DNA of 47,059 nucleotides from a bacterium (lineage in GTDB: Bacteria; Patescibacteriota; Microgenomatia; Levybacterales; UBA12049). Position 1 is the first letter of the stretch, and every line of letters starts with the position of its first letter. The stretch is taken from NCBI GenBank assembly GCA_021780675.1, contig JAJXYH010000019.1, forward strand, positions 1 to 47,059. The letters run 5' to 3'. Of this stretch, positions 2,444 through 33,952 are shown in pieces. The position numbers and the translations under genes were made by a program. The notes under the pieces are model-generated. The model saw nothing but the letters and a program-made list of their open reading frames with translations, did no database searches and was not told where the DNA came from.

Positions 2444-2527
2444 TCCCGCTTTTTTAATAAATTCGTTTAAACTCTACTATATTTAGTGTTTCCGGTTTCT
2501 GTTGGCACTAAAAATTCTCATTACCTA

Positions 2528-2590
2528 TTGACAAGACCCTGAAATAAAGCGCAATATTAAATAAAGTGGGAAAAGTTGGGAAATAGTGGG
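2528..2590 (+). promoter_or_regulatory. mraZ promoter and three TGGG MraZ-type boxes
   Basis: TTGACA at 2528-2533, AT-rich -10 region near 2552-2558, then TGGG at 2567-2570, 2577-2580 and 2587-2590 with exact 10-bp period, just upstream of mraZ. Confidence 0.75.
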
Positions 2591-2608
2591 AAAAGGAGGC
2601 AGGAGAAA

Positions 2609-3052
2609 GTGCTAATCGGTCAATATGATTCAAAAGTTGATACTAAAGGAAGAACAGCGTTACCTAAGAAATTCAGGGAAATCTTGGGTGAAAAGTTAAT
2701 TGTTACTTTAGGTTATGAAAGCTCGCTTATTGTCGTATCAGAGAAAAACTGGAAAGCGTTACTTGAGGGGACAGAAGGAAGGCCGTTTATTGACTCCGCA
2801 ACCCGGCAGACGCAAAGGTTTTTACTCGGAGGAGCTTCAAACGTCGAGCTCGACAATAAGGGCAGGTTTATACTCCCTTATTATCTTAGAGAATATGGAA
2901 AAATTGAGACAGATGTCGTATTCGTAGGGCTTTCGAGGTACGTTGAGATTTGGAGTAAAAAGGTTTGGGAAGAGTATAGGAAAGTCTTAGAAAAAGATAT
3001 CGACACAATTTCGCAAAGATTAGTCAAAAGAGAAAGGGAGGGAAATGAATAA
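2609..3052 (+). CDS. mraZ: Transcriptional regulator MraZ
   Basis: VLIGQYDSKVDTKGRTALPKKFREILGEKLIVT... SpoVT/AbrB-like MraZ signature. GTG start at 2609 after AAGGAGGCAGG preferred over the TTG at 2576. Confidence 0.95.
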   Translation: MLIGQYDSKVDTKGRTALPKKFREILGEKLIVTLGYESSLIVVSEKNWKALLEGTEGRPFIDSATRQTQRFLLGGASNVELDNKGRFILPYYLREYGKIETDVVFVGLSRYVEIWSKKVWEEYRKVLEKDIDTISQRLVKREREGNE

Positions 3053-3941: not shown

Positions 3942-3942
3942 T

Positions 3943-4227
3943 ATGAAAAAACCTGCCCTATTAATTATATTTTTGATTTCAACAATTATAGTTTTGTCAC
4001 TTGTTAGAACCTATATTTCCAACAATGTTGCAACTTCCGGTGTGGTTTTAGGCCAAATACAAAAGGAAACAGAAAGTTTAAAACTGGAAAACAGCGTGTT
4101 AGCAGAAAAAGTATATGATTTATCTTCTTTGACAAATTTAGCGCAAAAAGCTTATGATCAAGGTTATACGGAAGGAAAGTCAAGTTTTGCCATTGGTACG
4201 ACAATCCCCGTTGCTATAAAACAATGA
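3943..4227 (+). CDS. FtsL-like septum protein
   Basis: Short single-TM protein with coiled-coil-like segment between rsmH and ftsI; ATG at 3943 preferred over TTG 3928. Confidence 0.65.
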   Translation: MKKPALLIIFLISTIIVLSLVRTYISNNVATSGVVLGQIQKETESLKLENSVLAEKVYDLSSLTNLAQKAYDQGYTEGKSSFAIGTTIPVAIKQ

Positions 4228-5909
4228 CCTGGAGATATAAAATCGTATTTATTTCCATTGTGTTTTTCTTCTTTCTGATTATTCTTAGGTTATTTTATTG
4301 GCAGGTTATTAAAGCAAGTGAATTGTCCGACATGGCCCAGGCACAGTACGGCACAGCGATAAAAATTTTGCCCCAAAGGGGAGATATTGAAACATCCGAC
4401 GGATTTCCGATAGCAACCAGTAAAATCACTTACCTTGTTTTTGCAAACCCCCAAGAAATAAAAGATAAGGCAAACTCGGTTGATCTATTATCGCGGTATT
4501 TAGACATAGATGTTGCATCAATTAGTGCTGATTTAAGTTTGGATAAATTCTGGGTTCCTCTTGAGCACGGATTGAGCGTAGAAAATAAGCAGAAAATCGA
4601 AAGCCTTGATCTTCCCGGTATTGGTTTTTCCCAGGAGTATGAAAGACACTATCCGGAGGCATCGATGGCGGCCCAGCTTTTGGGTTTTTTAGGAAAAGAC
4701 GAACAGGGAAATGATAAAGGTTATTTTGGTTTGGAAGGCTATTATGACAGGCTCTTAAAAGGAAAAGAAGGAGCGGCTATTCAGGTTCATGATGCATTTG
4801 GAAGGCCGATATTGGCAAAAATGAATAGCAACCAGAGTGAAGCCGACGGACAGACATTGGTTTTAAACATTAACCGCGCATTCCAGTTTTTGGTCGAAAA
4901 GAAACTAAAAGACGGGGTGGAAAAATACGGGGCTCAAAGTGGAATGGTAGGAATTATGGATCCTAAAACTGGAGGAATATTGGCTATGGCTTCGTATCCC
5001 AAATTTGATCAAAGACACTATCAGGATTACTCAAGCGATTTATATGTAAACCCTTTTATCTCCGACCTTTATGAACCTGGTTCGACTTTTAAACCGATCG
5101 TTATGTCTGCAGCTTTAGATAAAAATTTGGTTACTCCCCAGACAAAATGCAATATTTGTTCGGGGCCTGTTTCGGTTAGCGGGTATGAAATCCATACTTG
5201 GAATGACAAATATTTCCCCGGAATCAATATGATTGAAACCATCCAGCACTCGGATAACACGGGAATGGTATTTGTTGCCCAAAAAATGGGAGTTGACCAA
5301 ATGATAACGGCCTTAAATGAATTTGGAATAGGAAGTAATACCGGCATAGATTTACAGGGTGAAGTTTCGGCGCCGCTTAAGCCAAAAAGCGATTGGTATG
5401 CCGTAGATTTGGCAACTACCGGCTTTGGACAGGGAATATCGGTAACTCCGATAGAAATTTTGGATGCAATCGGAGCAATAGCAAACGAGGGAAAGCGGAT
5501 GGAGCCTCATGTTGTGAATGCGGTTGAAAATTCCGAAGGGAAGTTGGTTAAAATCCCTCCTAAGGTTACAGATTCGCCTATAAGCCCTCAAACTGCCAAG
5601 GTAATGACAGAAATAATGGTTAACGCCGTAAATAAGGGTGAAGCTTCTTTTGCTCGTTTAAAGGGATATAGGATAGCCGGTAAGACAGGAACGGCTTCTA
5701 TTCCGATTGCCGGACATTATGACCCTAACCAAACTATAGCTTCATTTGTGGGTTTTGCGCCTGCCGATAACCCTAAATTTGTAATGCTGGTAATTTTAGA
5801 TAGGCCAACTGCTTCAATTTATGGAGCAGAAACCGCAGCGCCAATTTTTTTCGATATTGCTAAAACTCTGTTAGAATATTATCAGATAGCACCAACAAGC
5901 GGAGAATAA
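4224..5909 (+). CDS. ftsI: Peptidoglycan D,D-transpeptidase FtsI / class B PBP
   Basis: 561 aa; YEPGSTFKPIV (SxxK), SDN in HSDNTGMVF, KTGTA motifs; dcw context. Confidence 0.95.
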   Translation: MTWRYKIVFISIVFFFFLIILRLFYWQVIKASELSDMAQAQYGTAIKILPQRGDIETSDGFPIATSKITYLVFANPQEIKDKANSVDLLSRYLDIDVASISADLSLDKFWVPLEHGLSVENKQKIESLDLPGIGFSQEYERHYPEASMAAQLLGFLGKDEQGNDKGYFGLEGYYDRLLKGKEGAAIQVHDAFGRPILAKMNSNQSEADGQTLVLNINRAFQFLVEKKLKDGVEKYGAQSGMVGIMDPKTGGILAMASYPKFDQRHYQDYSSDLYVNPFISDLYEPGSTFKPIVMSAALDKNLVTPQTKCNICSGPVSVSGYEIHTWNDKYFPGINMIETIQHSDNTGMVFVAQKMGVDQMITALNEFGIGSNTGIDLQGEVSAPLKPKSDWYAVDLATTGFGQGISVTPIEILDAIGAIANEGKRMEPHVVNAVENSEGKLVKIPPKVTDSPISPQTAKVMTEIMVNAVNKGEASFARLKGYRIAGKTGTASIPIAGHYDPNQTIASFVGFAPADNPKFVMLVILDRPTASIYGAETAAPIFFDIAKTLLEYYQIAPTSGE

Positions 5910-5924
5910 GATATAATACCTGAA

Positions 5925-7259
5925 ATGAGAAAAGTGTTTGCAAAATTTATTATTAATTATTTAAGAGTTATTGCAAAACTTAAATTAAGAAGTATAAATC
6001 CAATAATCATCGGTGTAGGCGGCGCAAGCGGTAAGACTACTCTTTCGAATTTTATCTACTTAATTTTTAGTAAAAAATATAAAGTAAGGCAGGGAAAAGG
6101 AAAGAACAGCGAGACAGGAATCCCCTTAGATATTTTAAAGTTATCTACAGGAAGCTATAAATTTTTAGATTGGCTTAGAGTCGTAGTTCAGGCACCTTTT
6201 AGGCTTTTTTTAGACTTTGATAAATATGATGTATATGTTGCAGAAATGGGTATTGATAGTCCGGTTGAGCCTAAAAATATGTCGTATTTACTTAAAATAA
6301 TAAAGCCGCAGATTGCGGTTTTAACAAATATTTCTTATGAACACAGTGAATATTTTGAGCCGCTTGCAATGGATGAAGACTTTAAAAATGTAGAAGAAAA
6401 AATATTAAATTTAACTGCACAACAGGAAATGCTTCTTTTAACCTCGGTAGGAGAATCGGGCACAGCAGTTTTAAATATAGACGACGATTATATAAATTCG
6501 GCGAAAAAAGAAATACAAGCTAAGAAAATTACGGTTTCTCTAAAAAATGATTCGGCAGATTTTTATATTAATGAAATTAAAAACTATGTTGATAAATTCG
6601 ACCTACATTTTATACATGAGGGAGAAAAATATAAATTAACTATCGACAATCCCCTGCCTGTGCATTTTGCATACAGTTTTGTAAGCGCGATTGCGGTTGG
6701 TAAGGCAGGAGGAATAAAAATATCGGAATCGATAAGTATTTTAGAAAATGATTTTTACCTGCCTGCCGGTAGAATGAGTTTTTTTAAAGGCGTTAAAGAT
6801 TCAATTATTGTGGATTCTTCTTACAATAACGCTACTCTTACTCCGATTTTAGACTTACTAGGCTTTGTTAAAGAAATTGGCAACCAAAGAAGAAGAGTTG
6901 GGATCATTGGGGATATGAGGGAGCTTGGAACCATGAGTAAGCCACTGCACGAGGAAGTTGCGAGAAAAATTCTTGAGACCTTGGATGCTGTGATTTTAAT
7001 CGGACCGTTAAGTCAAAAATATATATTACCGATTCTAAGAAGTAATAACTTCCCTGTATCTTCGTTTTTAAACTTTACTTCGGCAAAATCAACAATTTTG
7101 GAGCAAGTTAAGCCTAAGAATATAGTACTGGTTAAGGGTTCGCAGAATACATTATTCTTAGAAAGAGTTGTTGAAATGCTTCTTAAAGACCCTAAAGATA
7201 AAGAAAAACTTTGCAGACGTGGTGAATACTGGGATAGGATAAGAGAGAAAACTTTATAA
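5925..7259 (+). CDS. murF: Mur ligase family protein, MurF-like
   Basis: GVGGASGKTTLSNF P-loop, VAEMGIDSPVEP, LTNISYEHSEYF, IVDSSYNNATLTPILDLL. Confidence 0.85.
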   Translation: MRKVFAKFIINYLRVIAKLKLRSINPIIIGVGGASGKTTLSNFIYLIFSKKYKVRQGKGKNSETGIPLDILKLSTGSYKFLDWLRVVVQAPFRLFLDFDKYDVYVAEMGIDSPVEPKNMSYLLKIIKPQIAVLTNISYEHSEYFEPLAMDEDFKNVEEKILNLTAQQEMLLLTSVGESGTAVLNIDDDYINSAKKEIQAKKITVSLKNDSADFYINEIKNYVDKFDLHFIHEGEKYKLTIDNPLPVHFAYSFVSAIAVGKAGGIKISESISILENDFYLPAGRMSFFKGVKDSIIVDSSYNNATLTPILDLLGFVKEIGNQRRRVGIIGDMRELGTMSKPLHEEVARKILETLDAVILIGPLSQKYILPILRSNNFPVSSFLNFTSAKSTILEQVKPKNIVLVKGSQNTLFLERVVEMLLKDPKDKEKLCRRGEYWDRIREKTL

Positions 7260-7583
7260 TTTTAGGTTCAATTTGTCTCCAAGTCCGGTTTTAGAATTAT
7301 TAACACTGCCTGCAGGCAATTCCAAAACGATATCATACTTTGGATTCCATAAAATTACTCTATTGGGTTTAACGGATTCTTTGATAAATACAACTTCATA
7401 TCTTTTATTTAATACAATAAGGTCGAATGGTTTACTCATTAAAAAAGTGTGTATTCCAAAGCGGGTCCTAAAAACAATCGCCTCAACTTCTTGTTTAAAT
7501 AAAAGTCCAACCATTTTCGAAAGTCCTGTTTTATATAAAAAATTATTTGCAATAACAGTTTTTTTAGACTCGTTTTTTATCAT
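7254..7583 (-). CDS. DUF192-family protein
   Basis: 109 aa; GLSKMVGLLF...AIVFRTRFGIHTFLMSKPFDLIVLN...VLELPAGSVN pattern of DUF192. Confidence 0.75.
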   Translation of the reverse strand: MIKNESKKTVIANNFLYKTGLSKMVGLLFKQEVEAIVFRTRFGIHTFLMSKPFDLIVLNKRYEVVFIKESVKPNRVILWNPKYDIVLELPAGSVNNSKTGLGDKLNLKL

Positions 7584-7639
7584 TCATCTTATTATACAAA
7601 AACTAGAGAAAGGTAAAAATAAAAGGTATAATACTGTTT

Positions 7640-8833
7640 ATGTGGCAAAAGATTAAAAATCAGTACCATTTATTTATGGCTGTTCTTGCTAATGCGGCAT
7701 ATCTTTTCCCTACCAGAAAAATAAAAGTAATAGGTGTTACCGGTACAGACGGAAAGACAACTACTGTAAGCTTAATTTATCATATATTAAGCGCAAATAA
7801 TTTTAGGGTTTCGATGGTAACAAGCATAGGCGCAGTAATAAACAATAAAAATTTTGATATAGGATTTCACGTTACTACCCCCAGTTCATTTTCATTACAA
7901 AAATTAATAAAAATGACCAGCATTAAAGAAACAGACTATTTTATATTAGAGGTAACATCTCATGCGATCGATCAGAATAGAATCTACGGAATTCCTTTTG
8001 AAATTGGGGTGTTAACGAATGTGACCAATGAACACTTGGATTATCATAAAACCTATAAAAATTATTTATACACCAAATTAAAATTGATATTTAAGGCAAA
8101 AATTGGAATTGTTAATTTTGATGATGACTCTTATTCTTATATTTCAAAATTAAAAGAAACAAATAAAAACCATAAACTTTTAACGTTCGGCTTATCGGAT
8201 AAAGCGGATATAAATCCGAATAATTTTAATTTAGGAGCAGTTAACTTTAAAGATAAATTTAATCAATATAATTTATTAGCTGCCGTAGCTGCGGTAAGAC
8301 AACTGGGGGTTACAAATAATCAGATAATTAATGCATTAAAAGTATTTAAGATGCCAATTGGAAGAATGCAGACTATATATGATAAAGATTTTAAAGTTGT
8401 TATCGATTTTGCCCATACTCCTAATGCTTTTTATCAAATTTTAAGTTATTTTCGTCCCATTATTAAGGGAAAAATAATTCACGTTTTTGGTAGCGCAGGG
8501 GAAAGGGATGCAAAAAAGAGACCAATCTTAGGAAAAACATCTTCCGAATACTCTGACGTTTTAATTTTAACAGCAGAGGATCCCAGGAGTGAAAATGTTG
8601 ATAAAATAATTAATGAGATTTCAGTAGGAATTAAAAATGAGAAAGTAAACATTTTAAAAATTCCCAATAGAAAAAAGGCAATAGAAGAAGCCGTTAAAAT
8701 GGCGAAGAAAAACGATTTAATAATTATTACGGGAAAAGCGCATGAGAAATCTATGAATATGGGAAATGGGGAAGAAGCGTGGGATGAGTTCTCCGTTGTA
8801 GAAAAAGCGCTTAAAATACATGAAAAAAATTAA
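7640..8833 (+). CDS. murE: UDP-N-acetylmuramyl-tripeptide synthetase-like Mur ligase (MurE)
   Basis: GVTGTDGKTTTVSLI, EVTSHAIDQNRIYGIPFEIGVLTNVTNEHLDYH, TAEDPRSEN. Confidence 0.9.
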   Translation: MWQKIKNQYHLFMAVLANAAYLFPTRKIKVIGVTGTDGKTTTVSLIYHILSANNFRVSMVTSIGAVINNKNFDIGFHVTTPSSFSLQKLIKMTSIKETDYFILEVTSHAIDQNRIYGIPFEIGVLTNVTNEHLDYHKTYKNYLYTKLKLIFKAKIGIVNFDDDSYSYISKLKETNKNHKLLTFGLSDKADINPNNFNLGAVNFKDKFNQYNLLAAVAAVRQLGVTNNQIINALKVFKMPIGRMQTIYDKDFKVVIDFAHTPNAFYQILSYFRPIIKGKIIHVFGSAGERDAKKRPILGKTSSEYSDVLILTAEDPRSENVDKIINEISVGIKNEKVNILKIPNRKKAIEEAVKMAKKNDLIIITGKAHEKSMNMGNGEEAWDEFSVVEKALKIHEKN

Positions 8834-10232
8834 AAACATTCACTTTGTCGGAATTAAAGGCGTCGGGATGACACCGCTTGCAATTATTGCCAAAGAGGCC
8901 GGTTTTGCAGTTACGGGTTGTGACACTCAAGATAGTTTTATAACGGATGAGCCGTTGAAAAAAGCAGGTATTAATCCGCTTGTAGGTTTTGATAAGTCAC
9001 ATGTTGTAAATGCCGATTTGGTAATAACAACAGGAGCAAATGGCGGTTTTGATAATCCTGAAAACTTGGAGGCTAAAAATCTAGATATTCCCATATTAAC
9101 ACAGGGTGAAGCAATTGCTAAATTTCAAAGCGGTGAATTTTTCGGTAAAAAATATGAAGGAATATCTATCGCAGGAACCCACGGAAAGACAACAACGACA
9201 GCAATGATTGCAGTTGTCTTAAAAGCGAACAAGCTTGACCCTTCTTTTGCAGTTGGTACAGGAATGATCCCGTTTTTGGATTCCGATGGACACTTTGGAA
9301 AGGGAAAATATTTTGTGGCGGAGGCAGATGAATATGCGACAGAACCCAAGTATGATAAAACACCCAAAATGCTACTGCAAAAGCCCAATATAGGCGTAAT
9401 TACCAATATTGAATACGACCACCCCGATGTTTATGCATCTTTAGAAGATTTAAAACGCGCATTCCTAAAGTTTGCAGAGGGAATAAGTAAGGATGGAGTT
9501 TTAATTACCAATATAGATAACGAAAATGTAAGAGAGCTTCTTAGATTCTATAAAGGAAATGTTATTACTTATGGATTTTCTAAAACAGCCGAGTTTGTCT
9601 TAACAAGGGTAAATATTGAGCAAGATAAAACATTTTTCTGGATAGAAAGAAATGATGTAAGTTTAGGTGAATTTTCAATTAATGTGTCCGGAGAACATAA
9701 TGCGCTTAACGCTTTGGCTGCAATTATTTCCTGTACAGAACTGGGATTACCGATAGAGCAAATAAAAAAGGGACTACTTTCTTTTAAAGGCACTAAAAGA
9801 AGAATGGAGTATATAAAAACAACTTATCAGGGAGCGTTAGTGTTTGATGATTATGCACATCATCCGACTGAAATACGGAAAACCTTAGAAACTCTTAGGA
9901 AAACCTATCCGAGTAAAAAAATTGTTTGTATTTTTCAACCGCATACATATTCGCGTACGAAATCTTTATTTGAACAATTTAAGAGTTCATTTACCGATGT
10001 TACAGAGCTAATTTTAACTAAGATTTACTCTTCCAAACGGGAAACTCCCGATCCGTTAGTTTCATCCGAAATTTTAGCCCAGCAAATTTCAACTACAAAA
10101 AACGGTGTAATATATACAGAAAACTTGGAAGATGTGGTAAAATATGTCGTTTCGAAGGCTTATGGTAGAGAATATATAATAATTACCATGGGAGCAGGGG
10201 ACGTATATAAAATTTTGGAGGAAATAAACTAA
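8820..10232 (+). CDS. murC: UDP-N-acetylmuramate--L-alanine ligase
   Basis: HFVGIKGVGMTPLA, AGTHGKTTTTAM, FDDYAHHPTEI, FQPHTYSRTKSL. Confidence 0.95.
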   Translation: MKKIKNIHFVGIKGVGMTPLAIIAKEAGFAVTGCDTQDSFITDEPLKKAGINPLVGFDKSHVVNADLVITTGANGGFDNPENLEAKNLDIPILTQGEAIAKFQSGEFFGKKYEGISIAGTHGKTTTTAMIAVVLKANKLDPSFAVGTGMIPFLDSDGHFGKGKYFVAEADEYATEPKYDKTPKMLLQKPNIGVITNIEYDHPDVYASLEDLKRAFLKFAEGISKDGVLITNIDNENVRELLRFYKGNVITYGFSKTAEFVLTRVNIEQDKTFFWIERNDVSLGEFSINVSGEHNALNALAAIISCTELGLPIEQIKKGLLSFKGTKRRMEYIKTTYQGALVFDDYAHHPTEIRKTLETLRKTYPSKKIVCIFQPHTYSRTKSLFEQFKSSFTDVTELILTKIYSSKRETPDPLVSSEILAQQISTTKNGVIYTENLEDVVKYVVSKAYGREYIIITMGAGDVYKILEEIN

Positions 10233-10233
10233 T

Positions 10234-11577
10234 ATGGACAAATTTATTGTAAAGGGAGGAAAAAAAATGCGGGGAACGGTTAACGTGTTTGGTTCAAAAA
10301 ATGTAGCTACAAAATTATTAGTTGCAGCATGTTTAACAGATGAGGAGATAGTTATCGAAAATTTACCTCTTATCTCAGACGTTTTAATAATGATTGAAAT
10401 AGTGAGGCATTTAGGCGGAGAAGCTAAAATCATTGACCACAAATTAAAAATAAGAATGAATAAATTTCTAAGTGAGAAAATTTCTCTGGAAAAAGCAGCA
10501 GAAATAAGACCATCGTTTATGTTTTTGGCGCCGCTTTTAGCCCGTAAAAAAGTTGCAATTATTCCTAATCCCGGTGGATGCAGGATTGGAGCAAGACCAA
10601 TAGACAGGGTCATAGACGGACTTAAGCAAATGGGCGTTAAGATTAAATATGAAAGTAAAGACGGATATTTTCATGCTCTGGCGCCTGATGGTTTAAAAGG
10701 AACATCTTATAAATTTGTAAAGAGTACTCATACGGGAACGGAAACAATGATACTGGCCGCCACAAACGCAAAAGGTAAAACAATTTTGGAAAATGCGGGG
10801 CAGGAGCCTGAAATTGATGAGCTTATTGCACTTTTAAATAGAATGGGTGGAAAAATTAAAAGAGATACACAAAATCCAAGAAGAATAGAAATAGATGGAG
10901 TAAGAAAATTGCACGGAGCAAAGTTTATTATTGCTCCAGATAGAAATGAGATTGTAACTTTTGCATGTGCGGCATTAGCAACACGAGGAGATATATTTAT
11001 TGAAAATATTACCAAAAAAGGAATTGAAGAATTCTTAGAACTTTTCGAAAAAATTGGAGGGCACTATGAAGAAAAAAATAAAGGAATAAGATTTTACTAT
11101 AAAGGAAAATTAAAAGCACAAGATGTTACGACAGGATATTATCCCGGTTTTATGACAGATTGGCAGGGTCCATGGTCTGTTGTAATGCTTAAATCGGAAG
11201 GAACATCGATACTTCATGAAAGAGTTTATGAAAATAGATTTACTTATGTTGAAGATATAAATAAAATGGGCGCAGAAATAGAGCTTTTTAATCCGCAGGT
11301 TAAAGACCCCAAAAAATATTATAATTTTAATTACAAAGACGGAAAAAATTTCTTTCATGCAGCCAGAATTACTGGTCCAAAAGAATTGCATAATGCAATT
11401 TTAAATATTTATGATTTAAGAGCAGGAGCAACTTTGGTTCTTGCAGCCTTGGCAGCTCAGGGTGAAAGTGTTTTACTAGGGATTGAGCACTTGGATAGGG
11501 GATACGAAGAGTTTGATAAAAGACTTAAAAAATTAGGCGCAAACATAAAAAGAGTAAAAGAAGAAATTTATGAATAA
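10234..11577 (+). CDS. murA: UDP-N-acetylglucosamine 1-carboxyvinyltransferase (MurA)
   Basis: FIVKGGKKMRGTVNVFGSKNVATKLLVAACL, PGGCRIGARPIDRVIDGLKQMG, YDLRAGATLVLAALAAQGESVL. Confidence 0.92.
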   Translation: MDKFIVKGGKKMRGTVNVFGSKNVATKLLVAACLTDEEIVIENLPLISDVLIMIEIVRHLGGEAKIIDHKLKIRMNKFLSEKISLEKAAEIRPSFMFLAPLLARKKVAIIPNPGGCRIGARPIDRVIDGLKQMGVKIKYESKDGYFHALAPDGLKGTSYKFVKSTHTGTETMILAATNAKGKTILENAGQEPEIDELIALLNRMGGKIKRDTQNPRRIEIDGVRKLHGAKFIIAPDRNEIVTFACAALATRGDIFIENITKKGIEEFLELFEKIGGHYEEKNKGIRFYYKGKLKAQDVTTGYYPGFMTDWQGPWSVVMLKSEGTSILHERVYENRFTYVEDINKMGAEIELFNPQVKDPKKYYNFNYKDGKNFFHAARITGPKELHNAILNIYDLRAGATLVLAALAAQGESVLLGIEHLDRGYEEFDKRLKKLGANIKRVKEEIYE

Positions 11578-12307
11578 AACAATAGGAGCGATAATACTTG
11601 CTGCGGGTAAAGGTACCAGAATGAAATCTAAGCAAATAAACAAGGTCGCGCTTCACTTAGCAGATAAACCGATGATCTTACATACGGTTGAATTTTTAAA
11701 AGACAATAATATAAAAAATATTGTGGTAGTAGTCGGTTTTGCGAAAGAGTCGGTAATGAAACTTTTAGACGGCGGGGTAATTTTTGCAGAGCAAAAACAA
11801 AGGTTAGGGACTGCACATGCCGTTTCAACAGCAATTAAAAAATTGTCAGGAGAGGTTAAAGAGGTTTTGGTCTTAAATGGAGATGATTCCGCTTTTTATA
11901 CGAGTGAGATAATTAATAAGCTTGTTAATAAACATATTAAAGACCAAGCGGCTTTTACGTTTTTAACAATTAAAAAAAATAATCCTCTTGGTTTAGGAAG
12001 GGTTGTAAGAGATTCAAAAGGAAAAGTGCTGGCAGTTGTGGAGGAAAAAGACGCGACTAAAGCACAAAGAAAAATCACCGAAGTTAATCCCGCATGTTAT
12101 ATTTTTAAAGTCTCTTTTTTAAAAAAATATTTAAAAAAAGTTAAGAAAAGCCCGATTACCGGTGAATATTACTTAACCAGTCTTATAGATTTGGGTATAA
12201 AAAATTATGAAAAGATAGAAACGCTTGCCGCGGGAAATCTTTTATGGAGAGGTGTTAATACACAGGAAGAGCTTTTAGAGGCTCAAAAATTAATCAAAAA
12301 AAATTAG
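11570..12307 (+). CDS. GlmU-type sugar nucleotidyltransferase, N-terminal domain only
   Basis: IGAIILAAGKGTRMKSKQINKVALHLADKPMI, EQKQRLGTAHAV, LNGDDSAF; lacks the C-terminal left-handed beta-helix of GlmU. Confidence 0.85.
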   Translation: MNKTIGAIILAAGKGTRMKSKQINKVALHLADKPMILHTVEFLKDNNIKNIVVVVGFAKESVMKLLDGGVIFAEQKQRLGTAHAVSTAIKKLSGEVKEVLVLNGDDSAFYTSEIINKLVNKHIKDQAAFTFLTIKKNNPLGLGRVVRDSKGKVLAVVEEKDATKAQRKITEVNPACYIFKVSFLKKYLKKVKKSPITGEYYLTSLIDLGIKNYEKIETLAAGNLLWRGVNTQEELLEAQKLIKKN

Positions 12308-12335
12308 TTCTCATATACAATTTGATATAGATTTA

Positions 12336-12364
12336 TTGAATAAGCTAACTTCAAGTATTATAAT
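12336..12364 (+). promoter_or_regulatory. mraY promoter
   Basis: TTGAAT (12336-12341) N17 TATAAT (12359-12364), 7 nt before the ATG at 12372. Confidence 0.65.
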
Positions 12365-12371
12365 ATAATCT

Positions 12372-13385
12372 ATGGCCCAACTATTAGGTTTTACTTTGCT
12401 TTCCCTAGTAATCACAGCGCTTCTTATAGTTCCTTTTATAGACTTTTTATATAAAATTAAGCTAAGAAGACAAGACCAAAAAACCGTAGATCTATTTAAT
12501 AAACCGACACCCATTTTTGATAAATTTCACGCCTGGAAGGTGGGTACTCCATTTGGCGGAGGACTGCTTATAATTATCATAGTTTCTGTTCTTTTCTTAT
12601 GGTCTTTTGGTGTTTTAAACGTGGATGTTAGCTTATGGGAAATTTTCGTAATCCTTTTCACATTTATTAGCTTTGGGGTTCTGGGGTTTTATGATGATGT
12701 TAAAAAATTGATAAATGGAAGGGACAATATTAATTTTTTTGGTTTAAGGTTTAGACATAAATTTATTCTTCAGTGCCTTTTAGCTGTTGTTCCCGCAACT
12801 ATTTTATACACGCATCTTGGTTATAGTTTTTTGTTTGTACGGGGCTTGGGGCAAGTTAATGTAGGATTTTTGTATATTCCGTTTGCAGTATTTGTGATTG
12901 TATCTTTTGCAAACGCCTTTAATATTACTGACGGTCTAGACGGCTTAGCGCCCGGACTACTGCTAATTGCACTGGTTGCATTCCTTTCGATTTCATTTGC
13001 TAATGTTGAGCAGAGCCTTGGACTTTTTATTGCTATACTTATGGGCAGCGTTGCTGCCTTTTTATATTTTAACGTGTATAAAGCGAGGATTTGGTTAGGT
13101 GACGTAGGATCTATGTCACTCGGCGCGTCTTTGGCAATAATTGGACTTTTAACCGGCAAAATTTTGGCAATTGCCATTATTGGAGGGGTTTTTGTTTTAG
13201 AGGTAGGTTCATCTTTAGTTCAAATTTTAGGGAAGAAATTTTTAAAAAGAAAAATATTGCCGATTGCACCCTTACATTTATATTTTCAAAAAAGAGGTTG
13301 GGATGAGCCAAAAATCGTAATGCGCGCCTGGTGGTTGGGGATTGTATTTGCAATACTTGGGTTATACCTTGCGTATTACAAATAA
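12372..13385 (+). CDS. mraY: Phospho-N-acetylmuramoyl-pentapeptide-transferase
   Basis: 337 aa multi-TM; KVGTPFGGGLLI, GFYDDVKKL, NAFNITDGLDGLAPG, IWLGDVGSMSLG, APLHLYFQKRGWDEPKIVMRAWW. Confidence 0.95.
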   Translation: MAQLLGFTLLSLVITALLIVPFIDFLYKIKLRRQDQKTVDLFNKPTPIFDKFHAWKVGTPFGGGLLIIIIVSVLFLWSFGVLNVDVSLWEIFVILFTFISFGVLGFYDDVKKLINGRDNINFFGLRFRHKFILQCLLAVVPATILYTHLGYSFLFVRGLGQVNVGFLYIPFAVFVIVSFANAFNITDGLDGLAPGLLLIALVAFLSISFANVEQSLGLFIAILMGSVAAFLYFNVYKARIWLGDVGSMSLGASLAIIGLLTGKILAIAIIGGVFVLEVGSSLVQILGKKFLKRKILPIAPLHLYFQKRGWDEPKIVMRAWWLGIVFAILGLYLAYYK

Positions 13386-14455
13386 TGAAAAGAATTGATT
13401 TAGTTCTTCTAATATCCGTATTGTTTTTAACTCTTTTCGGATTGTTTATGATCTATGATGCTTCTTCCTATGTTGCATTTAGAGATTTTGCAGATAAATA
13501 TCATTACATAAAAGACCAATTTTTTTGGGTAATCTTGGGGGCTGTGGCGCTTGGGTTTTTTTCTCATTTTGATTATCACAAGTTCTACAATCTTGCTTTA
13601 CCGATCATGGTTTTTGCAATTGCGCTTTTAATATTGGTGTTTGTACCCGGTGTAGGGGTAAAATTATTGGGCGCAAGACGGTGGATTAATTTACACTTTA
13701 CGCTTTTACAGCCTTCTGAGTTTGTAAAGCTGGCACTATCTACCTACTTGGCAGCCTGGTTTTCGAATAAAGAAAAGGGGAGACTTTGGGCATTCCTATT
13801 ACTTTTGGCATTTATAATATTTTTGGTAATGCTTGAGCCGGATATGGGAACGGCGGCAATTATATTGTTTGAGGGAATTGTAATTTATTTTTTATCAGGA
13901 GCGAAAACAATCTATTTTGTAATAATGGGACCAGTTATTGCCGTTTTAGGACTAATTTTTGCAAAGCTTGAACCATATAGAGCAGCAAGACTTACTACTT
14001 TTTTAAACGTTTCTCAAAACGTTGATTCAACGTCATATCATGTTAGGCAAATACTTATTGCTTTGGGTTCGGGAGGTTTAACTGGGGTGGGGATTGGAAA
14101 TTCATTACAAAAGTATGCCTTTCTTCCTGAGAGTACCACCGATTCTATTTTTGCGATAATTGCAGAAGAGTTGGGTTTTTTGGGATCCCTAGCAATAATT
14201 TTTGTGTTTATAATTGTTATATGGAGGGGATTTAGGATTGCTACAAACGCAAAAGATCTATTTGGAAAATTATTGGCAGGGGGGATAATTTCGTTTTTAG
14301 CAGGACAAATAATGATTAACTTAGCAGCACAAACGGCACTGTTACCGCTTACGGGAATTCCTTTGCCGTTTATTTCTTATGGAGGTTCGGCTTTAATTAT
14401 CAATTTGGCAGCAATCGGAATTTTACTTAACATATCTAAACAAAGCAAAGTATGA
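13385..14455 (+). CDS. ftsW: SEDS-family peptidoglycan polymerase FtsW
   Basis: LGARRWINLHFTLLQPSEFVKLALSTYLA, EPDMGTAAII, FLPESTTDSIFAIIAEELGFLG, PLPFISYGGSALI. ATG at 13385 overlaps the mraY stop (TAATG). Confidence 0.95.
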   Translation: MKRIDLVLLISVLFLTLFGLFMIYDASSYVAFRDFADKYHYIKDQFFWVILGAVALGFFSHFDYHKFYNLALPIMVFAIALLILVFVPGVGVKLLGARRWINLHFTLLQPSEFVKLALSTYLAAWFSNKEKGRLWAFLLLLAFIIFLVMLEPDMGTAAIILFEGIVIYFLSGAKTIYFVIMGPVIAVLGLIFAKLEPYRAARLTTFLNVSQNVDSTSYHVRQILIALGSGGLTGVGIGNSLQKYAFLPESTTDSIFAIIAEELGFLGSLAIIFVFIIVIWRGFRIATNAKDLFGKLLAGGIISFLAGQIMINLAAQTALLPLTGIPLPFISYGGSALIINLAAIGILLNISKQSKV

Positions 14456-15540
14456 AAATTTTAATTACAGGCGGGCATTTGACGCCTGCACTTGCAGTTA
14501 TAGAAAAACTTAAAGGAAAACATGAAGTTCTTTATGTTGGTAGAAAACACGCTTTTGAAGGTGACAGCGCTATTTCTTTTGAATACCAAACCATTACAAA
14601 ATTGGGAATTCCATTTTATGAAATTAAAACCGGAAGATTGCAGAGAAAATTTACCAAGTACACTGTTTCTTCGCTTTTAAGAATTCCAAGCGGATTTTTA
14701 GGTGCTTATAAAATATTAATTGATGTTAAGCCGGATGTGGTCTTGGGTTTTGGAAGCTATGTTTCCGTGCCTGTGGGTATTGCCGCAAAATCATTAGGAA
14801 TACCACTGGTTATACATGAACAAATTCTTGCAGCTGGGTTTGCAAACAGAGTACTTTCGAAATTTGCAGATAAGATATGTGTTTCCTGGAAGTCTTCAGA
14901 AAGTTATTTTCCAAAGAAGAAAACTATTCTAACCGGAAATCCTTTAAGAGGTAGCGTATTGAATTTGAAAAATCAACAACAGGAAAAATCAATATACATT
15001 AGCGGCGGAAGTTTAGGATCTCATACTATAAATATGTTAATTTTAAAAATAATAAAAAAACTTTTAAAGGACTTTGTAGTTTTCCATCAGACAGGTGATT
15101 ATAAAAAACACAATGATTTCCAAAAACTTTTAGAGTTAAAGGAAACTTTACCAAAACAATTGGCTGATAAATACAAGTTAGTGAAATTTATGGATGTTGA
15201 TGAAGTATCCAAAAATATGTTGGCATCAAGTTTTGTAATAGGAAGATCCGGAATTAATACGGTAACTGAATTAATTTACCTTAAAAAAGCGGCGATTTTA
15301 ATACCTTTATCGTTAACCAAACACAGTGAGCAAATAAAAAATGCATACTTTTTTAAGCAAATCGGTCTTGGAGAAGTGTATTTAGAAGAAGATTTAGAAT
15401 CGGAAGGCCTCTACGATAAAATTATTAACTTTTATAAGAATATAGATAAATATCAATTAAAGGAAAACGTTCTAGTAAAAGAATCAGCAGATAAAATTAT
15501 TTCTGTACTTGAAGATGTTTATCCAAAAAAGGCTTCTTAA
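14452..15540 (+). CDS. murG: UDP-GlcNAc--MurNAc-(pentapeptide) pyrophosphoryl-undecaprenol GlcNAc transferase
   Basis: ILITGGHLTPALAVI, VLGFGSYVSVPVGIAAKSLGIPLVIHEQ, SGGSLGSHTIN, GRSGINTVTELIYLKKAAILIPL. Confidence 0.92.
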   Translation: MKILITGGHLTPALAVIEKLKGKHEVLYVGRKHAFEGDSAISFEYQTITKLGIPFYEIKTGRLQRKFTKYTVSSLLRIPSGFLGAYKILIDVKPDVVLGFGSYVSVPVGIAAKSLGIPLVIHEQILAAGFANRVLSKFADKICVSWKSSESYFPKKKTILTGNPLRGSVLNLKNQQQEKSIYISGGSLGSHTINMLILKIIKKLLKDFVVFHQTGDYKKHNDFQKLLELKETLPKQLADKYKLVKFMDVDEVSKNMLASSFVIGRSGINTVTELIYLKKAAILIPLSLTKHSEQIKNAYFFKQIGLGEVYLEEDLESEGLYDKIINFYKNIDKYQLKENVLVKESADKIISVLEDVYPKKAS

Positions 15541-15931
15541 AAAAGATCGAAATAAAAAACGAAAAAAACAATTAATATTTTCGGGTGTAATTATTTTATT
15601 TTTATTTGTTTTGGGAGTTTTTGTATACACTAATTTTTCCTTTGGCAGAAAAGTTTATATAAATCCGGTTTTGGAAAACCAACAAACAGGCACGTCTAAC
15701 TTGGAGCAAACATTAAAGGGTGCGAATATTAATTTTTCAAATATTAAATCGAATAATGACGGTTCATATAGTATTACACTATCGGATGGTGGTGAGGTAA
15801 TTTTGTCTTCAAAAAAAGACTTAAAGGCGCAACTATCCTCTTTACAATTAATACTTTCTAGGCTTACAATAGAAGGGAAGAAGCTTAAGATCGTAGATTT
15901 TAGGTACGATCGTCCTGTAATTTCATTTTAA
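15515..15931 (+). CDS. Short FtsQ/DivIB-like protein
   Basis: About 138 aa, single N-terminal TM, between murG and ftsA, C-terminus LKIVDFRYDRPVISF resembles the FtsQ end. Confidence 0.6.
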   Translation: MFIQKRLLKKDRNKKRKKQLIFSGVIILFLFVLGVFVYTNFSFGRKVYINPVLENQQTGTSNLEQTLKGANINFSNIKSNNDGSYSITLSDGGEVILSSKKDLKAQLSSLQLILSRLTIEGKKLKIVDFRYDRPVISF

Positions 15932-15935
15932 ATTT

Positions 15936-17231
15936 ATGAGTGAAGGAAAAATAGTTGTCGCAATTGATATCGGTACTTCAAAAATTGTTACTTTAATTGC
16001 AAAAGTTGATGAAGATGTAAATGTTTTAGGTGTATCCGAGACGCAGGCTAACGGAATTAAAAAAGGTCAAATTGTAGATATAGATGAAGCTGTAATTTCA
16101 ATAAATAATTCCTTAGAAGCAGCTGAGCGAATGGCCGGTTATTCGGCCTCGCATGTTGTTGCGTCTATTGGCGGAAGCCATATTGAGTCACAAAACTCTA
16201 GAGGTGTTGTCGCAGTTGCAAGACCGGAAGGCGAAATTACGGAGAGTGATTTAGCAAGAGTGTTCGATGCGGCAAGAGCAGTATCTCTTCCCTCAAGTAG
16301 GGAAATTATTCACGTACTCCCCCGAAGTTACATTGTTGATGGTCAAGAAGGAATTAAAGACCCAATTGGTATGACGGGTGTTAGGCTTGAAGTTGATACA
16401 CACATAATTTCTGCTAACGCGGTATCAATTAAAAATATGGAAAAGGCATTTTCTAATGTTGGGGTTGATTTGGACGGAGTGGTTTTTAGCGGATACGCAA
16501 GTTCGCTTGCAACTCTTTCGGATACGGAAAAAGAATTGGGTGTAGTACTAGTTGATATTGGTGCCGGAACAACCGATATCTCGGTTTATGTGGACGGTTC
16601 GGTAGCTTATTCTTCCGTTCTTCCAATCGGCGCAAAACACATAACCAATGATCTTGCGATTGGTTTAAGGATATCTTTGGAGTCTGCTGAGAAAATTAAG
16701 TTGCATTTATCAATTCCCGCCAGGAAAGCAGTTAGAGTAGATCAAGAGGGAGAAAATGAAAGGACAGAAGAAAAAGTAGGTGACGAGGTAGATCTTTCAG
16801 ACCTTAATTTGCCTGAAGAATTAAAGAAAGTTTCTAAAAAAACCTTAGTTGATGGGATTATCAGACCAAGATTAAACGAAATATTTACAATGGTAGGTAT
16901 AGAAATTAAGAAAAGTGGTTTTATCGGACAAACTCCATCAGGGCTTGTTATTACCGGCGGCGGAGCAAAAACAACCGGTGTAACGGATGCAGCAAAAAGG
17001 ATGCTTGCAATGCCTGTTAGAGTTGCAATTCCAACAAATATAAAAGGGATAATAGACGAAATCCAAGAACCTTCTTTTTCAACAGTTGTTGGTTTAACAG
17101 TGTATGGCGGCGGTCTTGATGTACAAAATTCTCTTCCCTTTGGTTTTTCGATGCCAAAGATACCGGGTATAAAAATAGATAACAAGATTTTTTCTAAAGT
17201 AATTTCGTTTGTAAAGTCATTTTTACCCTAA
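15936..17231 (+). CDS. ftsA: Cell division protein FtsA
   Basis: VVAIDIGTSKIVTLIA, SIGGSHIESQNSRGVV, VLVDIGAGTTDISVY, VITGGGA; C-terminal amphipathic helix. Confidence 0.96.
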   Translation: MSEGKIVVAIDIGTSKIVTLIAKVDEDVNVLGVSETQANGIKKGQIVDIDEAVISINNSLEAAERMAGYSASHVVASIGGSHIESQNSRGVVAVARPEGEITESDLARVFDAARAVSLPSSREIIHVLPRSYIVDGQEGIKDPIGMTGVRLEVDTHIISANAVSIKNMEKAFSNVGVDLDGVVFSGYASSLATLSDTEKELGVVLVDIGAGTTDISVYVDGSVAYSSVLPIGAKHITNDLAIGLRISLESAEKIKLHLSIPARKAVRVDQEGENERTEEKVGDEVDLSDLNLPEELKKVSKKTLVDGIIRPRLNEIFTMVGIEIKKSGFIGQTPSGLVITGGGAKTTGVTDAAKRMLAMPVRVAIPTNIKGIIDEIQEPSFSTVVGLTVYGGGLDVQNSLPFGFSMPKIPGIKIDNKIFSKVISFVKSFLP

Positions 17232-17285
17232 AGTTTTACTAAAGGGTCTGCCTTAAAAATTCTGTCTCAAAAGAATATACGGAAC

Positions 17286-17314
17286 TTGCAAATTTAATGT
17301 TAATTTGCTAGTAT
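17286..17314 (+). promoter_or_regulatory. ftsZ-proximal promoter with palindrome in spacer
   Basis: TTGCAA (17286-17291) N17 TAGTAT (17309-17314); GCAAATT-taatgtt-AATTTGC inverted repeat at 17288-17308. Confidence 0.5.
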
Positions 17315-17326
17315 CCAGAAACAAAT

Positions 17327-18460
17327 ATGTTAATTAAACCGCAGACAACAAATTTTGCAAAAATAAGGGTGATGGGAATCGGTGGAGGTGGCGGAAATGC
17401 CTTAAATTCGATGATTTCCCAAAGCACGATCCAGGGTGTTGATTTTATTTGTGTAAATACCGATGCACAGAGTCTTCTTTTAAATCAGGCAGCAACTAAA
17501 CTTCAAATTGGAGAAAATTTAACCAAAGGTCTTGGGTCGGGCGGAAATCCGGATATAGGAAAAGAAGCAGCAGAAGAATCTTACGAGAAAATAAAAGAAT
17601 TAATTAATGGTACAGACATGATTTTCTTAACTGCGGGAATGGGTGGAGGAACAGGAACAGGTGCAACCCCTGTAATTGCAAGAGCTGCAAAAGAGGTTGG
17701 CGCATTAACAGTTGCTGTTGTTACCAAACCATTTGCGTTTGAAGGAACAAGGAGAATGGTTGCAGCAGAAGACGGGATAGAAGAGCTTAAAGATAAGGTC
17801 GATACTTTAATTATTATCCCAAACCAAAGGATATTAGACGTTGTCGATAAAAAACTTTCGCTTTTAGAAGCATTTAAAGTTGCCGATTCGGTTCTTACAC
17901 AGGGTGTACAGGGAATTTCCGATCTTATTACTTTACCTGGGCTTATTAATGTAGATTTTGCCGACGTTAGGACAATTATGTCCAATGCAGGGAGCGCGTT
18001 AATGGGAATAGGAACCGGAGTTGGGGAAAACAGGGCACAAGCTGCGGCAAGAGCGGCGGTTGCATCTCCGCTTTTAGAAATTTCCATGGACGGAGCAAGA
18101 GGAGTGTTATTTAATATCATCGGAGGACCGGATTTAACCATGAACGAGGTTGATGAAGCGGCAAAAATTGTTGCTTCAGCTGCCGATCCTGATGCAAATA
18201 TAATTTTCGGAGCTACAATTGATGAAACGATGCATGATCAGCTTAAGATCACCGTAATTGCAACAGGATTTGATTCAACCAGGCAAACTCTTAAGGAATT
18301 TATGACGCCAACTATTAATAGAGTTATGGAGCAAAGCCAACAGCAGGTAAATAATCAGACAAATACGGTACAAGAGCCTCCAATGCCTACAGAAGCGCCT
18401 GCAGCGGAGGAAGAAGACGACGCATGGGACATTCCCGCATTTCTTAGACAAAAAAATTAA
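17327..18460 (+). CDS. ftsZ: Cell division protein FtsZ
   Basis: [33 protein letters not shown]-terminal peptide [14 protein letters not shown]. Confidence 0.98.
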
Positions 18461-18519
18461 ACCACCAAATTCTTCTTTAAATTGATTTTTGCTTATATAA
18501 AGTGTATAAGAAAATTAAG

Positions 18520-18978
18520 ATGACTAAAAACAAGCAAGAAGAAGACGGGTTATATTTTACAAAAGATAAATTTTTTGCTGTAATATTGATTTTTGCTATC
18601 CTCTTGTTAGTTTATTTTTTAACTAAAAATAGCATTTATCTTGGGAATCCGGTAGCTAAAAGTTCTACTTCCACAATTACCTTACCTTCGATTAGTCCAA
18701 CTTTAACAACGGCACCCACTTTAACAGATACCCCTACGCCAATACCTTTACAACAAGCTAAGTATTTCGTAGGACCATTATATTGCCCTAAAGTGTATTT
18801 GTCCGGCGTAACGCCTTGTGTTGATCAATATAAAACTCCGGTAGCATGCGTTTCCATGTTACACCCTGATGGAAGTCCCATTATTAATCTAATTTGTGGA
18901 ATACCTAATAACTCAAATAGCGTTAAGTCGTGTATAAATTATATGAATAATCCAAATGTTGTAATATGCCCCCAATAG
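18520..18978 (+). CDS. Membrane-anchored Cys-containing extracytoplasmic protein
   Basis: One TM, then T/P-rich linker (TAPTLTDTPTPIPL) and a small domain with 6 Cys. ATG at 18520 preferred. Confidence 0.6.
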   Translation: MTKNKQEEDGLYFTKDKFFAVILIFAILLLVYFLTKNSIYLGNPVAKSSTSTITLPSISPTLTTAPTLTDTPTPIPLQQAKYFVGPLYCPKVYLSGVTPCVDQYKTPVACVSMLHPDGSPIINLICGIPNNSNSVKSCINYMNNPNVVICPQ

Positions 18979-19112
18979 CAAAAAACTTCACAAAATATAA
19001 CCTTATAGTTAATCAATTAGCCTCAAGACAAACTAGAAAAAAATATTTAGCCTCAAATATATATCGTAATTATATGTTGTGCGACATAAAATAAATTTTA
19101 TAACCCTAGTTA

Positions 19113-19142
19113 TTGACAAATAAGGGGTAAAGTGCGATTATA
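19113..19142 (+). promoter_or_regulatory. Promoter of the TasA-like/signal peptidase module
   Basis: TTGACA (19113-19118) N17 GATTAT (19136-19141). Confidence 0.6.
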
Positions 19143-19147
19143 CCGAT

Positions 19148-19255
19148 ATGAAAAAGGCAGGTTTTTCATCTTATCCTCAGTTTTCCTCAAGCATAATCCG
19201 CCAATTTTTAAATCACAAATTATTTAATTTTAATCCTTTAATAGAAAGGGGGTGA
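19148..19255 (+). CDS. Candidate leader ORF (35 aa) overlapping the TasA-like start
   Basis: ATG 7 nt after the -10; MKKAGFSSYPQFSSSIIRQFLNHKLFNFNPLIERG, stop TGA (19253-19255) overlaps GTG (19252-19254). Confidence 0.3.
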   Translation: MKKAGFSSYPQFSSSIIRQFLNHKLFNFNPLIERG

Positions 19256-19821
19256 ATAAAATGATAAAAAGAATTTTATTAAGCGTTTTAATGATTTCTC
19301 TTGCTTTTTCTGCAGCAGCAGTAGCAACAACTGCTTACTTTTCTAATGGTCAAGTATTAGGTTCTAATACTTTTGCTACGGGTACTGTTACGATAGGTGG
19401 TTTTAATACACAAGGTCTAAGTGTAACGGGATTAACACCGGGCGTACCAGTATGGGTTCACAATGTCGGCGTTAATTACACTGGTAGTATAAATGCCGAT
19501 TTGTATGTTGGAGCTGGGGGCATAAGTGCTCCCGGAGAGCAAGCATATATTGCAGATATTACTTATCTTAGAATCTATAAGGCAGGTACGAATACGGAAG
19601 TTTGGGAAGGATATGTTAATACTTTGTCTACCAATTGGATAAGTTTAGCAAGCAATATAAGTGCAGGATGGCAAGCATATGATCTTCAGTTTACTCTTAA
19701 TTCCAATGTTGGAAATGATAAACAAAATGTAAACAATACGGATACGAAGATTTTAATCTATGCCGTTCAACATGGAGGTCCGGTTCCCGGTACAGTTCCA
19801 TATTTAACAAGTAGTTTTTAA
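19252..19821 (+). CDS. TasA/camelysin-like secreted protein (SipW-type signal sequence)
   Basis: SD AAAGGGGGTG; MIKRILLSVLMISLAFSAAAVATTAYFSNGQVLGSNTFATGTVTIGG, the A-T-x-AYFSN...NTFATGT pattern of SipW substrates. ATG at 19261 also possible. Confidence 0.8.
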   Translation: MNKMIKRILLSVLMISLAFSAAAVATTAYFSNGQVLGSNTFATGTVTIGGFNTQGLSVTGLTPGVPVWVHNVGVNYTGSINADLYVGAGGISAPGEQAYIADITYLRIYKAGTNTEVWEGYVNTLSTNWISLASNISAGWQAYDLQFTLNSNVGNDKQNVNNTDTKILIYAVQHGGPVPGTVPYLTSSF

Positions 19822-19842
19822 TTTACAAACTTGTTACTTTAT

Positions 19843-19870
19843 AGATTACCCAATTAATTTTGGGTAATCT
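19843..19870 (+). other. Intercistronic 11-bp perfect stem-loop
   Basis: AGATTACCCAA (19843-19853) / TTGGGTAATCT (19860-19870), 6-nt loop, no T-tract; lies between the TasA-like gene and the peptidase gene. Confidence 0.75.
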
Positions 19871-19882
19871 AATAAGGTATTT

Positions 19883-21073
19883 ATGAAAAATATATTATTA
19901 GTCTTTAAAAAATTATTGATGGTGCTAGTTATTTTTGTGCTTTGCATTTCCGTTTTGCTTTTGGTGTTAATTTCCTTTTCACCGATAAAAACCTTTCAGG
20001 TATTTAGGGTAATGTCAGGCTCAATGGAGCCGGAGATAAAAACAGGTTCTGTAATTTTTGTAGAACAAGTTAATCCAAAGGATTTAAAAAAGGGTGATAT
20101 TATTACGTTTTCCGTAAATAAATCAGTTTCTCCTGTAACTCATAGGATTGTAAAAATTTCTAAAGACGGAAAAATTACTACTAAAGGTGATGCAAATAGC
20201 ACAAATGATGTAGATGCGGTTAGCTTATCAAGTGTTAAGGGTAGGGAAATTTTTACATTACCGTATTTAGGATATATCTCTGAATGGACTAAAACACCAC
20301 TAGGGTTTATCTTTTTTATAATTTTGCCTGCCCTATTAATAATTATTAATGAAATTTTTAATATAAGAAAAATAGTTAAAGATGAAATTAAAAATAAGGT
20401 AAATGAAGCAAAAATGCCAATTATACTAATTTTGTTTTTAACAAGTACCGTAATTAGTTTAATAATTATTAGGCCAACTGGTGCCTTTTTCTCTAACGGA
20501 TTAGCATTATCCGGTAATATTTTTTCTACAGGTTATTGGGAGGCTTCAGGACAAAAAATTACTATTTGTCATGCAACGAGTAGTAAAAATAATCCATATA
20601 ATGAAATAAGTGTCAATTTGTCCTCGCTTGGAGATGGTCATGGAAGTAGTGGAATAAATTCGGATGATATTATTCCTCCAACGCAAGACTCTAATTATCC
20701 AAATGGGCATAACTGGACAGCTTTAGGTCAAGCAATATGGAATAATAAATGCGAGATACCAGATAAAATTCCTACTCCAACACTAACTCTTATTGAATCT
20801 AGCGATAATAAATATCTTACTTTTACGATTGAGGGAGTTTCCGACTATAAAAATTTATCTTATACGCTTACTTATGATACAAGTTCGGTGCCTCAGGGGG
20901 TTATAGGTAGTGATTCGGTTAAGGGCTCAACCTATTCCTCTCCGCAAATTATCTTGGGAACGTGTTCAACGGGTGGATTATGTGTATATAATAGTGGAAT
21001 ACATAATATCGTTTTAAAAGTTACCCTAAACGGTAAAGGTGGATTAACAAAAGTTTTAACAGGTTCTCTATGA
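19883..21073 (+). CDS. SipW-like signal peptidase I fused to a TasA-like motif, an ICHAT-type domain and a GTCS...C domain
   Basis: 396 aa; MSGSMEPEIKTGSVIFV (Ser), VTHRIVKI (His, ER/SipW type), TKGDANSTNDVDAV; then PTGAFFSNGLALSGNIFSTGYW, ITICHATSSKNNPYNEISV...GHG...DIIPP, and PQGVIGSD...IILGTCSTGGLCVYNSGIHNIVLKV. Confidence 0.88.
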   Translation: MKNILLVFKKLLMVLVIFVLCISVLLLVLISFSPIKTFQVFRVMSGSMEPEIKTGSVIFVEQVNPKDLKKGDIITFSVNKSVSPVTHRIVKISKDGKITTKGDANSTNDVDAVSLSSVKGREIFTLPYLGYISEWTKTPLGFIFFIILPALLIIINEIFNIRKIVKDEIKNKVNEAKMPIILILFLTSTVISLIIIRPTGAFFSNGLALSGNIFSTGYWEASGQKITICHATSSKNNPYNEISVNLSSLGDGHGSSGINSDDIIPPTQDSNYPNGHNWTALGQAIWNNKCEIPDKIPTPTLTLIESSDNKYLTFTIEGVSDYKNLSYTLTYDTSSVPQGVIGSDSVKGSTYSSPQIILGTCSTGGLCVYNSGIHNIVLKVTLNGKGGLTKVLTGSL

Positions 21074-33365: not shown

Positions 33366-33952
33366 TTGCCTCTATAAGGGTTATTAATAAATCTCATTCT
33401 GTTTATCGGCCAGTAGACAAAGCTTGATTTACCAATTACTTCGGACATTTTTACAAATCCCCACTCGCGCGAATCCGAGCTTGCCATGCGGTTATCGCCA
33501 AGCACAAAATACTCATTACTCGGAACAGTAATGGCCTGATTATCCAAAAGGAATGCTTCTCCGTATGTTTTAATATCACTTGCAATGTATTTTTTTTCGT
33601 CAAGAAGCTTACCATTAACATAAACGTCGCCGTTTTTAAGCATTATTGTATCTCCCGGAAGACCAATTACTCTTTTTATATAATCTTTATCAGGTTCAGG
33701 AGGTGCGTTAAAAACAATTACATCCCCTCTTTGTAGTTTTCCAAAAGAAGCGTGATAAAAGCCAAAGTTTTCAAATCCGATAAGATTAGTTAAAACGTAT
33801 TCCTGATTCCAAAAATTTGGGTACATAGATTCACCCTTTACCTCGAAAGGCCTAAAAAGTGTGACGTAGATAAAAAGAAATATAGCTGCGGCGATTAGAA
33901 AAGTTTGGACGGTATCTAAGAGAAAGTAGTAAATTATTCGTAGATATTTCAT
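33362..33952 (-). CDS. lepB: Signal peptidase I (Ser-Lys type)
   Basis: VKGESMYPNFWNQEYVLTN, DYIKRVIGLPGD, YFVLGDNRMASSDSREWG. ATG at 33952 preferred. Confidence 0.93.
   Translation of the reverse strand: MKYLRIIYYFLLDTVQTFLIAAAIFLFIYVTLFRPFEVKGESMYPNFWNQEYVLTNLIGFENFGFYHASFGKLQRGDVIVFNAPPEPDKDYIKRVIGLPGDTIMLKNGDVYVNGKLLDEKKYIASDIKTYGEAFLLDNQAITVPSNEYFVLGDNRMASSDSREWGFVKMSEVIGKSSFVYWPINRMRFINNPYRGN

Follow-up and report, generated by a model that had tools for sequence, protein, structure and literature searches.

What is a signal peptidase doing with an apparent substrate of its own attached to its C-terminus? Signal peptidases act on other proteins in trans, and to our knowledge none has been described whose own substrate follows in the same chain, after an internal signal peptide. 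Yet in the window, by which we mean the whole 47,059-nt stretch of DNA analysed here, one open reading frame encodes in order a SipW/ER-type (Ser-His) signal peptidase, a third transmembrane segment (TM3) with the features of a SipW-type export signal, and extracytoplasmic domains. Comparison with related proteins lends good support to the reading that a SipW-type peptidase has here been joined to a SipW-type substrate (SipW::B), and we think it probable that the fusion processes itself at A201/F202, freeing a filament accessory half, and that it also cuts the product of the upstream gene (gene A). The features on which the argument turns are the following.

19261 to 19821, plus strand: gene A, a TasA/camelysin-like filament subunit with a SipW-type signal; predicted cleavage ATTA/YFSN between 19335 and 19336
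19835 to 19879, plus strand: hairpin in the gap that separates gene A from the fused peptidase gene; minimum free energy (MFE) -22.7 kcal/mol
19883 to 21073, plus strand: fused gene (396 aa, ATG start) that joins a SipW-type signal peptidase to a SipW-type substrate
19883 to 20380, plus strand: peptidase part, residues 1-166, with TM1, the catalytic domain and TM2; TIGR02228 match over residues 12-158
20021 to 20023 and 20141 to 20143, plus strand: catalytic S47 and H87 of the peptidase part, which also holds D103 and D109
20423 to 20539, plus strand: SipW-type signal segment found with the stand-alone substrate profile, residues 181-219, comprising TM3 and PTGAFFSNGLALSGNIFSTGYW; predicted cleavage A201/F202 between 20485 and 20486
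20558 to 20761, plus strand: ICHAT...GHG...DIIPP domain, recognised in the sequence itself; residues about 226-293
20759 to 21070, plus strand: C-terminal domain YxLTYDT...LGTCSxGGxC, residues 293-396, with homologous C-termini elsewhere

The peptidase half was identified with several models. It scores 118.7 bits on TIGR02228, the curated S26 ER-type model with a cut-off of 51.85, matches Pfam S26 (E 2.9e-6), and has SEC11C as its nearest solved chain by sequence (E 6e-9), SEC11 being nearest by fold too. On the Bacillus SipW equivalog model SipWBacil (NF046067) it reaches 110.9 bits, under the cut-off of 190; judged by these profiles, it is a relative and not the Bacillus equivalog. The residues S47, H87, D103 and D109 are unchanged in all 67 fused copies, S47 and H87 are also invariant in 43 stand-alone relatives where these could be aligned, and AlphaFold models the peptidase part with pLDDT values mostly of 87-97. 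A preliminary description of the locus had reported a single 396-aa frame with a complete Ser-His signal peptidase, which is borne out by the TIGR02228 score and by the presence of all the motifs that it quoted, but it misnumbered the catalytic serine as S44: the serine is S47, beside M48, and the histidine is H87.

The junction behind the peptidase was scored with a profile built from 46 stand-alone SipW-type substrate signals in neighbouring loci of related bacteria, with no fused proteins among them. The window junction scored 26.4 bits, a value that fell to 24.2 once the gene upstream of the fusion had been taken out of the profile, and on the same profile none of the controls taken from fused proteins (65 peptidase halves, each holding two TM segments, 58 distal regions and 65 shuffles) reached 5 bits. 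These clean controls rule out a chance motif and uphold the earlier claim that the peptidase is followed by a hydrophobic segment with a motif resembling those of SipW substrates. Fused junctions scored at least 5 bits in 47 of 65 cases and at least 10 bits in 36. Across the 67 fusions, 49 stood at 5 bits or above and 18 below, and most of the latter keep a degenerate [AS]-x-[FY] site, so that the FFSN-type motif, whose absence from homologues the preliminary description had named as evidence against its reading, is mostly retained. Degenerate junctions include SFAFPTD in L010 and AIAQYVD in L012, and L156 and L137 are among the few fusions with no recognisable junction signal.

At aligned positions the cleavage-site pattern is kept in fused proteins as in free substrates: P1 is A, S or G (61/61), P3 is T, S or A (52/57), P2' is F or Y (53/61) and P4' is D, S or N (59/61), fractions that lean upward because the alignment was profile-guided. 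The curated NCBI model for SipW signals, TIGR04088, matches 15 of 62 fused C-terminal halves; it gave no match to the window's own at E values up to 1, and only the class-specific profile reached that one. Arg197-Pro198, at P5-P4 of the window junction, is unusual.

Fusions of this kind recur. Our survey covered 382 genomes of the window's class, 129 of which carry the peptidase at E ≤1e-15, and copies were counted by hand as fused when the open frame reached at least 235 aa, short extensions and broken frames being set aside. The preliminary description had proposed a search for the same fusion in related genomes: 60 of the 129 have one, and in 49 of these 60 it is the sole match. About 67 distinct fusions were collected, with Levybacteria, Woesebacteria and Amesbacteria (Microgenomates, Patescibacteria) among the named relatives, and this number, spread over many genomes, rules out a sequencing or frame artefact. 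In the phylum at large, stand-alone SipW is dominant and fusions are rarer.

The domains behind the junction vary, a Lamin Tail Domain (LTD) being present in 37 of 62 fusions and Ig-like, fn3 and RTX repeats in others, and the fused proteins reach 1171 aa in length. Even L041, the window's nearest relative (45% identity over peptidase and junction), ends in an LTD-like domain and not in the window's domains. A junction that stays constant ahead of changing downstream domains is what would be predicted for a working cleavage signal. For the class as a whole, we favour, somewhat cautiously, the view that these are autoprocessing signal peptidases, that is, polyproteins of an enzyme with its own substrate cut at an internal signal, in which a conserved module of enzyme and site has had varied surface domains grafted onto it.

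The ICHAT...GHG...DIIPP domain of the window's fusion matched nothing in Pfam or NCBIfam, and the fetched SipW loci contained no homologue of it; similar motifs probably occur in other bacterial surface proteins. Pfam and NCBIfam searches likewise gave no match to a TasA-like domain after the signal. The second domain, which the preliminary description had recognised as 'GTCS...C', proved to be a real, conserved C-terminal domain shared by fusions and separate substrates: the last 104 residues have homologues in about 18 other fusions and in stand-alone downstream substrates (L004, E 2e-22; L123, E 2e-17), always at or near the extreme C-terminus and with LGTCSxGGxC conserved. No Pfam family was found for this domain in the fusion proteins, and on the evidence of these alignments it belongs to an unnamed family other than TasA/camelysin. 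The same domain occurs in a 162-aa membrane-anchored protein elsewhere in the window (1955-2443, plus strand; E 2.0e-15), just 5' of an mraZ-like gene. Of 238 class genomes, 217 have the domain, for the most part in proteins about 150 aa long.

Loci in which SipW stands alone indicate where the fused half came from. Their gene order is a TasA-like gene (A), SipW and a second SipW-type substrate (B), and the commonest gap between SipW and B is -3, i.e., a 4-nt overlap. A separate protein with a SipW-type signal lies directly 3' of SipW in 24 of 41 split loci; among fused loci the figure is only 2 of 55 (Fisher p 1.1e-9). Among loci with context on both sides, A, SipW and B occur together in 22 of 39 split loci, B alone never, and A with the fusion but without B in 45 of 50 fused loci. 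The LTD, also common to fused C-terminal halves, is found in 15 of 24 separate B proteins. Since B is rarely found beside fusions and shares its domains with them, the fusion appears to be SipW joined to substrate gene B: the gene would have been born by in-frame joining of SipW with the translationally coupled second-substrate gene, turning A-SipW-B into A-SipW::B within a TasA-like surface-filament operon. On a tree built from peptidase domains, the fused or split state requires 17 changes by parsimony, only 2 of them forced by well-supported (starred) branches, which disfavours a single origin and suggests that fusion or fission of SipW and B has occurred repeatedly. In one further locus, L173, a stretch of about 2 kb contains two SipW peptidase genes, each flanked by its own SipW-type substrates.

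Gene A, which most likely starts at the ATG at 19261, behind AAGGGGGTG, and not at the GTG at 19252, matches Pfam Peptidase_M73 at E 0.0037, under the cut-off. Its family profile (A6) matches TasA structures over mature positions (8aur, E 1.8e-10; 5of1, E 2.1e-10) and, likewise within the mature domain, archaeal AbpX. Once its first 20 residues are removed, the mature part of the window's protein reaches 30.7 bits on the leave-one-out family profile. In a Foldseek search the model of this protein (mean pLDDT 84) came closest to Pyrobaculum bundling pili and the Sulfolobus thread filament, with modest TM-scores of 0.33-0.36. By profile homology, gene A is a member of the TasA/archaeal bundling-pilus family; this membership and synteny support the earlier proposal that the peptidase also acts on the upstream TasA-like protein. 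The filament operon follows directly on a cluster of division and cell-wall genes of which ftsA-ftsZ are the last (window 1955-21073). Linkage to ftsZ as a general feature is ruled out, no ftsZ motif being present in the other fetched loci.

In the mechanism that we propose, the catalytic domain would lie outside the cell, TM2 would return the chain to the cytoplasm and, after a short positive cytoplasmic loop, TM3 would run outward again, acting as a signal peptide inside the chain. The fused peptidase is predicted to cut after A201 (PTGA/FFSN), in cis or through a neighbouring copy, releasing a C-terminal surface domain with a TasA-type N-terminus, FFSNGLALSGNIF, and the same enzyme would trim the upstream TasA-like protein (TTA/YFSN). 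The freed half would probably be a low-copy accessory of the gene A filament (nucleator, tip or anchor), like TapA in B. subtilis, and by that analogy may start or anchor the filament. Self-processing is supported by the retention of P1, P3 and the motif, by the retention of the catalytic residues, by the split equivalents, and by the presence of a single SipW with two signals.

Alternatively, there may be no self-cleavage, TM3 serving as a permanent anchor in a stable three-TM assembly platform for the TasA-like filament, with FxSD...GNxF as a donor-strand-like element that binds the filament. Consistent with this, AlphaFold models TM3 as one uninterrupted helix (residues 180-203; the model is poor beyond 217), the fused domains are adhesion-like (LTD, Ig, fn3), and the segment after the predicted cut coincides in part with the TasA donor strand (PMC9674648). 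However, the fused proteins keep the same small residues at P1 and P3 as free substrates do, and a donor strand would not need these; nor would a pure anchor have any need of FxSD. We therefore consider a permanent anchor unlikely.

If the fused half is cut, the enzyme responsible could in principle be another one. The window's genome, which is 98% complete, has one SipW-type peptidase above cut-off and exactly two SipW-type signals by profile, one in gene A, at 66.6 bits, and one in the fusion, at 23.1 bits. It also has canonical P-type signal peptidases, including LepB at 33401-33910 on the minus strand, and one of these might cut the fused half, the fusion then being a neutral joining of genes. 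However, E. coli LepB cuts TasA-type sites with Phe at P2' poorly, an aromatic residue in that position being a hindrance (PMC10269814), which makes the P-type enzymes poor candidates for the junction, and the conserved pattern is SipW-type and not an ordinary AxA site; we consider cleavage by such an enzyme very unlikely. With a sole SipW, only two signals and an E. coli LepB that is poor at such sites, the most economical explanation would be that the fused SipW processes both itself and the product of gene A. That the tethered signal is instead a pseudosubstrate, blocking the active site until the real substrate (gene A) arrives, is scarcely plausible: the signal is indeed held beside the enzyme at 1:1 and some junctions are degenerate (L010, L012), but most show the full cleavable consensus, and inhibition would not need large, varied C-terminal domains (up to 1171 aa).

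Two other peptidase-like genes were noted in the same genome. One encodes a P-type signal peptidase I of 596 aa fused to an apparent CAP/SCP-like extracytoplasmic domain, read by eye (contig C12, L126:982-2772), and the other is a signal-peptidase-like open reading frame of about 100 aa (contig C48:32915-33202) that is also found in L002 and many relatives.

The arrangement of the operon bears on how much of each product would be made. None of 200 shuffles of the hairpin between gene A and the fused gene folds as low as the native sequence, and the homologous gaps between A and SipW have z below -2 in 62 of 67 cases (median -5.5, relative to mononucleotide shuffles), in fused and split loci alike. 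The hairpin is possibly a partial terminator or an RNA stabiliser. Together with the SipW-B overlap in split operons, it suggests that A is abundant and that SipW and B are scarce and made at 1:1, a ratio that the fusion would keep.

The fusion sets enzyme and partner at 1:1 and points to the surface protein that belongs with the TasA-like filament of these uncultured bacteria, and TasA-type filament operons are carried by many Patescibacteria. Furthermore, one gene and two point mutants would make a simple system for cis cleavage by a signal peptidase.

Among known systems, the closest is the tapA-sipW-tasA operon of B. subtilis, in which SipW trims both of its neighbours, TapA and TasA (PMC9674648), and TapA probably gives the first donor strand (PMC9674648, PMC10151520). 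Both loci have a dedicated Ser-His signal peptidase whose neighbours on either side carry SipW-type signals, include a TasA-family filament subunit and have overlapping genes beside sipW (PMC10151520, PMC9674648). In B. subtilis, however, SipW is a separate protein, whereas in the present loci the filament gene comes first and SipW forms one chain with the substrate that follows; this substrate has LTD, Ig or unnamed domains and not a TapA or TasA fold. The Bacillus cereus sipW-calY operon likewise sets a SipW-type peptidase beside camelysin (M73/TasA-like) genes (PMC10151520), but without a fusion and with camelysins as partners. The gene A model best matches the donor-strand filaments of archaea, namely bundling pili and Sulfolobus threads. 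A signal peptidase I has been proposed to trim the subunit of the threads (PMC9715654), and the literature consulted on these filaments describes no peptidase-substrate fusion. Eukaryotic SEC11, the signal peptidase catalytic subunit and the nearest solved structure to the peptidase half, is a single subunit of a complex without a fused substrate. Full-text searches of an open-access library yielded no description of such fusions, in Patescibacteria or elsewhere, and the fusion is apparently a real, recurrent and hitherto undescribed variant of a known system.
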